Origin: Nocardioides marinisabuli
GTDB lineage: Bacteria; Actinomycetota; Actinomycetes; Propionibacteriales; Nocardioidaceae
Assembly: GCF_013466785.1 (NCBI RefSeq)
Contig: NZ_CP059163.1
Location: 2,914,001 to 2,978,000, forward strand
DNA length: 64,000 nt
Direction of reading: 5' to 3'
Every line of letters starts with the position of its first letter. The first letter of the stretch is position 1. The notes under the pieces are model-generated. The model made no database searches and was not told the origin of the DNA. It saw only the letters and a list, made by a program, of their open reading frames with translations. A program made the position numbers and the translations under genes. Of this stretch, positions 21,570 to 30,123 are shown one piece after another.

Positions 21570-22439
21570 GTGAACAAGTCTCAGCTCATCGACGCGCTCG
21601 CAGCGCGCTACGAGGGGAACAGGAAGGCGGCCGCGCACGCGCTCGAGTCGGTCCTCGACACGATCACGCGCGAGGTCTCGAAGGGCGAGAAGGTCGCCAT
21701 CACCGGGTTCGGGTCGTTCGAGAAGCGGATCCGCGACGCCCGGTGGGTGCGCAACCCGCGCACCGGCGAGCGGATCAAGGCCAAGAAGACCGCCGTGCCG
21801 AAGTTCACCCCCGGCGCCGACCTCAAGAACGTCGTCTCCGGCGCCAAGAAGCTGCCCAAGCTGACCGTCGCCGCCGCGACGGCGCCCGCGGCGATGGCCG
21901 TCGACACGGTCAAGAAGGCGACGGGCAAGAAGTCGTCGATCGCGAAGTCGGCGCCGGCGACGAAGGCGCCCGCCAAGAAGACTGCCCCGGCGACGCAGAC
22001 GACGGCTGCCAAGGCCCCCGCCAAGAAGACCGCCGCCAAGAAGACCGCCGCCAAGAAGACGACGGCCGCGAAGACGACGGCCGCGAAGACGACGGCCGCG
22101 AAGACGACCGCCGCGAAGACGACGGCGAAGAAGACGCCCGCCAAGAAGTCGACGGCGAAGAAGACCCCGGCGAAGACGAGCGCGACCTCGTCGTCCGCCG
22201 GCACGAAGGGGCCGGCCAAGAAGTCCACCGGCACCGCTTCCACGAAGGCGCCTGCCAAGAAGTCGGCCGCAGCGAAGTCGACCGCCTCGAAGTCGACGGC
22301 CTCGAAGTCGACGGCCTCGAAGTCGACGACGGCCAAGAAGAGCCCGGCCAAGAAGACGTCGAGCGCGGGCGGCACCTCGAGCGGCAGCACGTCGAGCAGC
22401 AGCTCGGGCAGCGGTGGCTCCTCGACGTCCTCCTCCTGA
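21570..22439 (+). CDS. hup: Histone-like HU protein with long Lys/Ala-rich tail
   Basis: A 289-residue actinobacterial HU (HupB/HupS type). Residues 1-90 are the HU DNA-bending domain (MNKSQLIDALA, GFGSFEKR, RNPRTGERIK), and the remaining 200 residues are a histone-H1-like tail of repeated PAKK, TAAK and STASK units. It compacts the nucleoid, and the tail binds DNA non-specifically. The tail is longer than in mycobacterial HupB and is built from 15-bp DNA repeats, so its length may vary between strains. GTG 21570 has GGGGAAGCGGA upstream. Confidence 0.95.
   Translation: MNKSQLIDALAARYEGNRKAAAHALESVLDTITREVSKGEKVAITGFGSFEKRIRDARWVRNPRTGERIKAKKTAVPKFTPGADLKNVVSGAKKLPKLTVAAATAPAAMAVDTVKKATGKKSSIAKSAPATKAPAKKTAPATQTTAAKAPAKKTAAKKTAAKKTTAAKTTAAKTTAAKTTAAKTTAKKTPAKKSTAKKTPAKTSATSSSAGTKGPAKKSTGTASTKAPAKKSAAAKSTASKSTASKSTASKSTTAKKSPAKKTSSAGGTSSGSTSSSSSGSGGSSTSSS
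22056..22130 (+). repeat. 15-bp tandem repeat encoding KTTAA
   Basis: Four near-identical copies of AAGACGACGGCCGCG (22056-22115) plus a partial fifth, inside the HU tail. Confidence 0.85.
22275..22330 (+). repeat. 15-bp tandem repeat encoding KSTAS
   Basis: Three copies of AAGTCGACGGCCTCG (22275-22319, the first with one change) and a partial fourth, in the HU tail. Confidence 0.85.
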
Positions 22440-27859: not shown

Positions 27860-28954
27860 ATGACCGAGACGCCTGGCCCCGAGACCGCTGCACGCAAGAC
27901 CCGAGTGGCGCTCGTCTTCGGTGGACGCTCGGGCGAGCACGCCATCTCGGCGGCCACGGCCGCCGGGGTGATGAAGGCGATCGACAGCGACAAGTACGAG
28001 GTGCTGCCCATCGGCATCACGCGCGACGGGGACTGGGTCCTGGCCGCGGGCGACGCGTCGCGCTGGGAGCTCGCCGCCGGGCGGCTCCCCGAGGTCACGA
28101 CCGGGTCGGGCCCGGCCCTGGCCAGCCTCGGCGAGGCCGGTCCGGTCGACGTGGTCTTCCCGCTGCTGCACGGCCCGTACGGCGAGGACGGCACCATCCA
28201 GGGGCTGCTCGAGCTGGCCGGCGTGCGCTACGTCGGCGCCGGCGTCCTGGCCTCGGCGGTCGGCATGGACAAGCACTACATGAAGCTGGTCTTCGCCGGC
28301 CACGGACTGCCGGTGGCGCCGTACGTCGTGGTGAGGCCGAGCGAGTGGGAGCAGCGCCCCGAGGCCGTGGTGGCGCGGGTGCAGGAGGCGCTGGAGTTCC
28401 CGGTCTTCGTCAAGCCCGCCCGGGCCGGCTCGTCGCTGGGCGTCACCCGCGTCGACGACCTCACGGGGCTGGCCGACGCGATCGAGGAGGCCCGCGCCCA
28501 CGACCCGAAGGTGCTGGTCGAGCAGGGCGTCGAGGGACGCGAGATCGAGTGCGCGGTGCTCGGCGGTCGTGGCGGCGCAGCGCCGCGGGCCTCGGTGCCC
28601 GGCGAGATCGTGGTCGACCACGGCGCGGCGACGTTCTACGACTTCGAGGCCAAGTACCTCTCCGACTCCCAGGCCCGCACCGAGGCTCCGGCCGACCTGC
28701 CCGCCGACGTCGCCCAGCGGGTGCGCGAGGTCGCGGTGCAGGCGTTCGAGGCGATCAGCGGCGAGGGCCTCTCGCGCGTCGACGTCTTCGTGACGCCCGA
28801 CGGCGAGGTGCTGCTCAACGAGATCAACACGATGCCGGGCTTCACCCCCATCTCGATGTACTCGAAGATGTGGGAGGCCAGCGGCATGTCCTACACCGAG
28901 CTGGTCGACGAGCTCATCCAGCTCGCCCTCGAGCGCCCCACCGGTCTGCGCTGA
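27860..28954 (+). CDS. ddl: D-alanine--D-alanine ligase
   Basis: A 364-residue ATP-grasp ligase. VALVFGGRSGEHAIS, LLHGPYGEDGTIQG, VFVKPARAGSSLGV, YDFEAKYL (omega loop with Tyr) and LLNEINTMPGFTPISMYSKMW (metal ligands Glu and Asn) are complete. It joins two D-alanines for peptidoglycan synthesis and the product goes to MurF, encoded 11 bp upstream. A second ddl-like gene faces it downstream, separated by a repeat array. Confidence 0.97.
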   Translation: MTETPGPETAARKTRVALVFGGRSGEHAISAATAAGVMKAIDSDKYEVLPIGITRDGDWVLAAGDASRWELAAGRLPEVTTGSGPALASLGEAGPVDVVFPLLHGPYGEDGTIQGLLELAGVRYVGAGVLASAVGMDKHYMKLVFAGHGLPVAPYVVVRPSEWEQRPEAVVARVQEALEFPVFVKPARAGSSLGVTRVDDLTGLADAIEEARAHDPKVLVEQGVEGREIECAVLGGRGGAAPRASVPGEIVVDHGAATFYDFEAKYLSDSQARTEAPADLPADVAQRVREVAVQAFEAISGEGLSRVDVFVTPDGEVLLNEINTMPGFTPISMYSKMWEASGMSYTELVDELIQLALERPTGLR

Positions 28955-28961
28955 CCAGGCT

Positions 28962-29113
28962 CGAATCTCCCGCCGACCCGGCCCGAACTTCCCGCTGACC
29001 CGGCGGGAATCTCGCGCTGACCCGGCCGGAACCGGCACAGGCAGGTGTGCGCCGGGTCGACGAGACATATGCGCCGGGTCGACGCGAGATGTGCGCCGGG
29101 TCAGCGCGAGATA
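28962..29113. repeat. 22-bp-period repeat array forming a large inverted repeat between two ddl genes
   Basis: The left arm holds three 22-bp units (28962-28983, 28984-29005, 29006-29027) sharing the core CGACCCGG or TGACCCGG. The right arm holds three 22-bp units in the opposite sense (29048-29069, 29070-29091, 29092-29113) with core GCCGGGTC, and a partial fourth from 29114. ATCTCGCGCTGACCCGGC in the left arm is the exact reverse complement of 18 nt in the last right unit. The arms could fold into a long stem and terminate both convergent genes, but the regular period suggests a dispersed repeat family. Confidence 0.8.
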
Positions 29114-29132
29114 TGGGCCGGGTCGGGGGCGG

Positions 29133-30086
29133 TCAGGCCAGGGTGCGGCGGACCAGGTCGAGGACGACCTGGCCGAGGCTGGTGCCGGAGAGGGTGCAGG
29201 CGAAGGGCATGACCGAGGTCTCGGTGGTGCCGGGGGTGATCGCGGTCTCCAGGAGCACGTAGGAGCCGTCGCCCGAGACGATGAAGTCGGAGCGCGAGAG
29301 GTGGCGCAGGCCGAGCACCCGGTGGGCCTCGCCGGCGGTCCGCTCGAGGGCCGCGATCAGCTCGTCGGGCAGGTCGGGGCGGGAGAAGGAGACGAACTCG
29401 GCGGTGTAGCGGGCGTCGAAGTCGAACTCGTGGCCCTTCTCGTACTCCACCGCCACCGGGGTCAGCGCCTGCACGCCCTCGTCGGTCTCGATGCACACGA
29501 CGCTGACGTCGGTGCCGTCGTAGAAGCGCTCGATGAGGGCGTCGTCGCCGTAGGCGTAGGCGGTCACGAGCGCGGAGGGCAGGGCGGCGAGGCCGTCGAC
29601 GCCGGTCACCCCCAGGGCGCTGCCGCAGCGCGTCGGCTTGGCCACGACGCGCTCCCCGAGCCGGTGCATGACGTGCTCCATCAGCGCGGCGGCGCCGATG
29701 TCGCGGAAGGTCTGGGAGGAGAGCCCGACGCTCTCGGGCACCGCGATGCCGGCGCGGCGCAGGAGCTCGCGGGCGGTGCCCTTGTCGTGGGCCACCCGGC
29801 AGGCGCGGCTGCGGGTGCCGACGTAGGGCAGGTCGATGAGCTCGAGGAGCGTCTGGATCTCGCCGTCCTCGCCGAAGTGGCCGTGCAGCGCGGGGACCGC
29901 GGCCACGACCTTGTGCTGCTCGAGGGTGTGCAGCAGGTTGCGGTCGAAGTCGTAGGCCTCGGCCTCGACGCCGACCGCGCGCAGCTCGCGCACCAGGTTG
30001 CGGCCGCTGGCCAGCGACACGTCGCGCTCGTGGCTCAGGCCGCCGGCGATGACGGCGACGGGACCGGGCAGCTGCTCCTCGCTCAT
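29133..30086 (-). CDS. Second D-alanine--D-alanine ligase homologue
   Basis: A 317-residue ATP-grasp protein related to Ddl: VAVIAGGLSHERDVSLASG, PALHGHFGEDGEIQ, VVAKPTRCGSALGV and FDFDARYTAEF are Ddl-like. The final metal-binding motif, NEIN in the neighbouring ddl, reads LETA here, so the second Mg ligand (Asn) is replaced by Ala. The enzyme may still work with altered chemistry, or ligate another pair of substrates. ATG 30086 is chosen over one six codons upstream because family proteins begin near VAVIAGG. It converges on the first ddl. Confidence 0.87.
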   Translation of the reverse strand: MSEEQLPGPVAVIAGGLSHERDVSLASGRNLVRELRAVGVEAEAYDFDRNLLHTLEQHKVVAAVPALHGHFGEDGEIQTLLELIDLPYVGTRSRACRVAHDKGTARELLRRAGIAVPESVGLSSQTFRDIGAAALMEHVMHRLGERVVAKPTRCGSALGVTGVDGLAALPSALVTAYAYGDDALIERFYDGTDVSVVCIETDEGVQALTPVAVEYEKGHEFDFDARYTAEFVSFSRPDLPDELIAALERTAGEAHRVLGLRHLSRSDFIVSGDGSYVLLETAITPGTTETSVMPFACTLSGTSLGQVVLDLVRRTLA

Positions 30087-30123
30087 GGCACGAGCGTCCC
30101 ACATCGCGCCGACCTGCCGTCAC

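Follow-up and report, generated by a model that had tools for sequence, protein, structure and literature searches.

At the locus, two convergent genes, both of the D-Ala-D-Ala ligase type, flank an array of short cores that runs in one direction past the first gene and in the other direction past the second (Table 1). The window analysed is a stretch of 64,000 nucleotides of Nocardioides marinisabuli (NZ_CP059163.1, positions 2,914,001 to 2,978,000). A sequence-only reading of this window had described a 22-bp-period array between the two ligase genes, with three units in one orientation and three to four in the other. The location, the opposite arms and the 22-bp steps in both of them hold, and the count becomes four cores each way. 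Tandem Repeats Finder (TRF) agrees, reporting two 22-bp arrays at 28949-29031 (score 103) and 29048-29125 (score 114). The 18-nt exact complement said to span the centre was also recovered by reading the sequence, with 29009-29026 matching 29095-29112.

Table 1. Features of the ligase locus, in window coordinates
Feature	Position	Strand	Remarks
D-alanine-D-alanine ligase gene (ddl)	27860..28954	+	Dala_Dala_lig_N and Dala_Dala_lig_C; alternative caller start 27905
TGA stop of left ligase gene	28952..28954	+	shares its GA with the first core
Left arm, four direct cores GACC(A/C)GGC	28953..29026	+	22-bp period; sense to ddl
Left-arm core positions	28953, 28975, 28997, 29019	+	GACCAGGC (one mismatch) at 28953, GACCCGGC at the other three
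Array centre	29019..29058		outer stem formed by the innermost core of each arm; by eye, GCACA/TGTGC as inner stem
Right arm, four cores at 29051, 29073, 29095, 29117	29051..29124	-	22-bp period; reads in the direction of the right ligase gene
Second D-Ala-D-Ala ligase-like gene, convergent	29133..30104	-	alternative caller start 30086

The innermost + and - cores lie 32 bp apart. RNA folding of the array gave z-scores of -7.3 and -9.1 on its two strands, and in whole-array folds the outer units pair otherwise than in a simple central-stem reading. The array was unmatched among 4227 Rfam families at E values up to 1, the single sub-threshold match lying upstream at 28517-28575. No terminator-like site with a T tail was found between 28800 and 29300. 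The ddl gene of Nocardioides sp. TRM66260-LWL is 75% identical to the window ddl in the best segment; its ddl pair has no array and, by reading, about 3 bases between the two stops.

Two side observations concern the surrounding material. Amid actinobacterial matches, records titled Vibrio cholerae 35D (L153) and Sporosarcina beigongshangi (L149) carry ddl genes 58-60% identical to that of the window; these records are perhaps contaminated assemblies. Elsewhere in the window, a 15-bp-period repeat (CGCCGGCCAAGAAGA) occupies 21952-22176 within an apparent - strand coding region.

A dispersed family of arrays at gene ends

The pair GACCCGGC-N14-GACCCGGC occurs exactly 90 + 75 = 165 times in the 4.17-Mb genome of N. 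marinisabuli and 0 times in the reversed control. These pairs, together with the RNA-fold z-scores, rule out a chance arrangement at the ligase locus. A weight matrix built from the exact pairs found 298 units in 78 clusters in the fetched stretches, with 1 in the reversed-sequence control. Judged by sequence, the ligase-locus array is one of a dispersed family of gene-end elements of Nocardioides. The earlier suggestion of a lineage-specific structural repeat that is more than a normal terminator fits these 78 clusters and the arrays in some other genomes of the genus. That reading had advised searching the genome and its relatives for further units and had taken a lack of copies in any relative, together with the lack of a transcript end at the site, as evidence against itself; copies turned up in both genome and relatives.

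The arm count is 102, taken over 10 kb of the window and 62 fetched stretches, and one or two of the pairs behind it could be coding; 91 arms have 3-5 cores. The underlying set of 72 clusters came from exact pairs and BLAST matches and therefore misses weak arrays. Internal spacers are near GCANATCTCGCGCY, and the last unit differs, being near CCGAACC. Adjacent units within an arm resemble each other (0.757 vs 0.657 in permutations, reached in 0 of 5000). Bare cores number 31 in the window, 7 of them in the array and 24 outside it, where about 15 would be expected in all. A second type of unit, near GACCCGGCGCCACTTCCCCGCC, forms a few arms in the same genome (G000:C1 at ~1.39, 3.23, 3.82 and 4.09 Mb; L078, L114, L120, L122).

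With genes called by our own codon-usage caller, the nearest upstream coding gene lies on the same strand as the arm in 90 of the 102 cases. Relative to the end of that gene, 50 of these 90 arms start exactly at -2, so that the TGA stop consists of a T and the GA of the core; 9 start further inside, 24 at up to 20 bases past the stop and 7 beyond. A tRNA scan covering 60 of the 62 stretches placed one arm 52 nt past a tRNA-Ser gene and in its sense. The remaining 11 arms have no coding gene on their own strand and no tRNA gene before them, and several of these arms adjoin the 5' end of a gene that runs the opposite way. A convergent neighbour is faced by 65 of the 90 arms; in the window, the same holds for 14 of the 62 gene ends counted. 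Facing + and - arms occur at 24 loci, at 5 of which one arm lacks a same-strand coding gene (the tRNA case included). TGA is the stop in 84 of 87 array genes counted and in 50 of 64 genes in the window. Despite this preference, a role at the level of translation is not favoured, because one arm follows tRNA-Ser.

The same orientation is seen in other genomes. Six genomes with 21/22-bp arrays have 78 of 90 arms after a same-strand gene (G013 28/34, G125 26/28, G118 10/11, G025 8/11, G008 4/4, G095 2/2), the 12 others including coding matches and arms at locus edges. Among the 31/32-bp genomes G152, G131, G116, G014 and G109, 34 of 36 arms are gene-oriented, a count that omits arms inside called genes.

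Periods and helical spacing

In the rows seen, the period is 21-22 or 31-32 bp; other array-bearing genomes of the genus share the core and differ in their spacers. The occurrence of the core across species was found by searching with that same core. At 30-33 bp, 12 of 18 genomes tested had 10-140 pairs, with 0-2 in the controls of those 12; the 18 had been picked from 147 after an earlier survey, and for G168, G164, G108, G148, G093, G111 and G160 the 30-33-bp band was taken as a whole, with single periods unseparated. No family appeared at 23-29 bp in 25 genomes (0-12 matches, controls 0-5); the forward pattern was slightly commoner there than the control, and these matches are probably one-off coding matches. 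Nor did any array-bearing genome stand out at 10-19 bp among 147 genomes (0-19 matches, controls 0-13), the top counts being 19 in G097, mostly from one local 18-bp array, and 18 each in G040 and G135. That local array is a single-place row of GACCCGGCGGGAGGGGGA units with 14 cores (G097:C1:3475713-3475954).

We regard the period rule as firm. Whole-turn spacing of this kind, with no family at 23-29 bp, is what protein-bound phased direct repeats have. The 10.5-bp turn of B-DNA fits periods of 21 and 31.5, whereas an RNA turn of 11 would give 33. Units of 32 bp have two conserved blocks, with positions 21-22 and 27-28 poorly conserved. An in-phase A/T component of ~10.7-11 bp is the strongest one in G000 and G152, reaches moderate strength in G118 and is weak in G131 and G025. 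Curved DNA, considered on this basis, gave a mixed picture, clear in some genomes alone.

Distances between facing cores also cluster. In our genome they fall at 19-20, 32-36, 43-44, 54 and 65 bp (24 of 27 rows, three with a single - core being omitted), and among the rows listed for the 32-bp genomes G152, G014 and G109 they fall at 18-19, 28-29, 37-40 and 48-49, rows not at 31-32 bp and some off-centre G014 rows being omitted. The best steps were 10.0 bp in G152, 10.0 bp in G014 and 11.2 bp in G000. When the distances were jittered individually by at most 6 bp, a phase score as high as the observed one came up 0, 0 and 1 times in 5000, respectively, in a test that also rewards plain clustering, is dominated by one cluster and covers uneven steps in our own genome. 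For G014, a step of 11 or 12 bp scores nearly as well as one of 10. Since the test rewards clustering, the G109 distances form one cluster and one G152 pair overlaps (-14), helical stepping between facing arms is suggestive.

A survey of any tandem repeat over 800 kb of 12 genomes found rows at 16 of 326 3' ends, of which at least 2 are one array viewed from both sides (L295), compared with 4 of 220 divergent 5' regions and 0 at shuffled 3' ends. The real rows span periods from 15 to 39. Gene ends thus favour tandem repeats generally, the helical rule aside. Several such rows have other cores. Arrays of 25 and 29 bp with a GGTCGTCGAGGAGGTCGCGCAGC-type unit lie directly past gene stops at L293:16771 (G085) and L320:19526 (G168) and are a different gene-end repeat. 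A 21-bp array past a gene end at L283:10332 (G001) has a TGCAGGTCGAGAC-type unit whose core is unrelated, and L312 and L314 (G090) hold 24- to 39-bp tandem repeats past gene ends, six rows in 80 kb.

Distribution and conservation among relatives

A 21/22-bp pair with a leading T, searched in 147 genomes of the genus, gave 95 matches in G000, 91 in G013, 45 in G125, 36 in G118 and 3 in G095; the leading T favoured stop-anchored arms in the last four. Without the leading T, the pair gave 44 matches in G025 and, weakly, 8 in G008 among 77 genomes of the genus and order. In a class-wide sample of 394 genomes, the 20-23-bp pattern had more than 2 matches in G000 and G125 alone and in no genome outside the genus, in keeping with the lineage-specificity first proposed. 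Gene neighbourhoods of named relatives, some of them short, held no arrays when scanned with the 22-bp unit matrix of our own genome alone, single matches occurring in 8 of 80 loci. In the majority of the genomes of the genus no GACCCGGC family showed up, so its function is either dispensable or otherwise performed.

At more than 50% protein identity, 21 of 27 array genes in G013 and 13 of 23 in G125 match array genes of N. marinisabuli. The numbers fall in more different genomes, to 2 of 8 in G025 and 0 of 16 in G118, G008 and G095 together; of the array genes in the 32-bp set, 1 of 34 matches. Because the loci were fetched around arrays and our own array genes were the only queries, these figures count shared array genes and not losses. 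Orthologous arrays vary in unit number and spacer and keep their cores. Two arms at 3.818 Mb in N. marinisabuli correspond to G025 arms with a 21-bp unit and a different spacer. Two G118 loci with 21-bp arms have counterparts in G116 and G109 where the arms are built of 32-bp units; both genes match in each case, and four arms are involved. That the same gene ends can bear different units speaks for upkeep of the position or its repeated recruitment.

Central hairpins and direct rows

The sequence-only reading had taken the array as folded into a large inverted repeat. Such an inverted repeat does exist as one layout of the element, and an inverted partner is absent for 54 of the 102 arms. Within a locus, the spacers that adjoin the centre show more complementarity than permuted ones (0.633 vs 0.520, 0 of 5000; 24 loci), and other genomes often have near-perfect stems of locus-specific sequence at their centres. 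The next three spacer pairs outward show no excess (0.584 vs 0.605, 0.704 vs 0.684 and 0.619 vs 0.650 in 23, 21 and 9 loci), so the idea that outer units form the stem of the inverted repeat falls away: these units are maintained as sites, not stems. Folds after the last core follow the same division. The 48 paired arms have a mean z of -2.94, with 60% below -2. The 54 unpaired arms average -0.16, with 7% (4/54) below -2, versus -0.39 and 8% for 77 control ends. Direct arms alone fold slightly better than shuffles (mean z -0.77 paired, -1.42 unpaired). All of these arm and gene-end scores are relative to mononucleotide shuffles.

TTTT occurs after none of the 102 arms within 102 nt of the last core, which means that the arms do not provide the usual U-tract ending. 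A whole inverted-repeat hairpin as the general function was rejected, given the unpaired arms and the outer units without excess complementarity. The direct row is the part common to all arms. Its unit in N. marinisabuli contains C at 0.44 and G at 0.26. Over 12 genomes, with 2-4 hand-picked representative units per genome, C minus G ranges from +0.39 to -0.07 and is positive in 10 of the 12, so that the C over G excess of G-poor Rho utilisation sites is not constant. By reading, the unit is not self-complementary, unlike the imperfectly palindromic unit of REP/BIME elements.

DISCUSSION

Sense polarity, the place at gene ends, the tRNA case and the enrichment at convergent neighbours point to a role at the end of transcription, and the whole-turn steps point to a protein on DNA. 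Together, polarity, position and spacing favour a polar protein row acting as terminator or insulator. We put the probability that these arrays are polar, helically phased rows of protein-binding DNA sites that end or insulate transcription units at about 0.46. By sequence, each arm consists of head-to-tail GACCCGGC sites at, or a few bases past, a gene end and reading in the direction of the gene. With sites two or three helical turns apart, a putative DNA-binding protein could sit on one face of the DNA and form an ordered, polar row on the cores. Such a row may stop or weaken RNA polymerase leaving the gene, so that the transcription unit would end and the neighbour would be shielded. Convergent genes would each have their own arm, the two meeting at a hairpin that both transcripts could form and giving a two-way stop. 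The binding protein, the polarity of the block and termination are what we infer from DNA sequence. At paired loci the central hairpin could serve by itself, which counts against a protein row, as do the 11 arms that lack a preceding gene in sense, the many genomes of the genus in which no family showed up and the few array genes shared with the more different genomes.

More tentatively, we suggest a categorically new gene-end system in which dozens of ordinary genes would end at protein-dependent stops made of cooperative polar protein rows on phased GACCCGGC sites; spacer and period (two or three turns) could differ between species, and the core, its polarity and the helical phase would be constant.

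Other explanations were weighed against the protein row. The hairpin at the centre could be the acting part, a plain two-way terminator whose outer repeats are by-products of local tandem duplication; the complementary central spacers, the strong folds after paired arms and the likeness of neighbouring units all agree with this. We nonetheless consider it rather unlikely, as more than half of the arms are unpaired and just 4 of those reach z below -2, like control ends, a T tract is absent after the arms, and by-products would not be expected to keep a core, a sense orientation and whole-turn periods across genomes. A signal in the RNA, with Rho or another RNA-binding ring or nuclease acting on transcript repeats past the stop at ~10.5 nt per protomer, would account for sense orientation, nearby stop codons, the C-rich unit of N. 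marinisabuli and the smaller number of units per arm where the unit is longer. This is improbable in our view. Rho is not known to need a fixed G-containing core, the Rho reading loses ground with a C over G excess that varies (the representative units from G118 and G116 do not show it), and the clustered distances between facing + and - arms have no obvious reason at the RNA level.

Selfish or mobile repeats inserting at gene ends, their helical spacing set by a transposase or recombinase complex, would explain dispersal, likeness of units within an arm, central palindromes and the bare ddl pair of Nocardioides sp. TRM66260-LWL. The mobility raised by the sequence-only reading is weakened by array positions shared with G013 and G125 orthologues, and neutral insertion would not give a consistent sense orientation, which leaves this account quite improbable. 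The least weight goes to a chromosome-organising or DNA-uptake type of site that collects at gene ends because it is tolerated there. The core is repeated and non-palindromic, and Neisseria uptake sequences that double as terminators offer a precedent (PMC2397512). DNA uptake sequences are scattered singly through genes in hundreds of copies. Bare cores are only moderately frequent in the window, though, and arm orientation follows the genes.

Several known systems share parts of this anatomy with the arrays. REP/BIME elements are dispersed intergenic repeats in inverted pairs; the units here are non-palindromic, gene-oriented and stop-anchored. Plasmid iterons are tandem sites about two helical turns apart, whereas these arrays are dispersed at chromosomal gene ends and not at an origin. 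In eukaryotes, TTF-I/Sal-box arrays of rDNA are polar tandem sites past a gene at which bound protein stops transcription; we propose them as a working analogy for the putative protein-bound arrays and claim no homology.

Pairs of Neisseria DNA uptake sequences act as Rho-independent terminators (PMC2397512). They resemble these arrays in having a short conserved core and hairpin-forming inverted pairs at gene ends. The arrays differ in their direct-repeat arms, whole-turn spacing and frequent lack of an inverted partner, and single cores are not strikingly enriched in the one window counted. BldC binds DNA direct repeats head-to-tail, its protomers lying on 9-bp AT-containing repeats in the promoter cases described (PMC5859096). 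The likeness lies in a directional row of protein, putative here, along direct repeats whose number varies, again in an actinobacterium; the difference is that GC cores stand 21-32 bp apart at gene ends. Neither BldC nor the Neisseria pairs share this anatomy. No description of the arrays appeared among the matches listed from the open PMC literature, which included 30 of the 374 papers that contain the 8-mer.

The arrays are real, so far in some genomes of one genus, and as regards their function, which we infer, there is a fair chance that they are a termination signal of a new kind. Textbooks give bacterial transcription two endings, a hairpin with a U-tract or Rho. If the protein-row reading is true, the arrays would point to a third, roadblock-type ending of bacterial transcription, akin to eukaryotic rDNA terminators. 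Arrays of two and of three turns, which in two instances occupy corresponding gene ends in different species, would then offer a natural series for the study of cooperative DNA binding.
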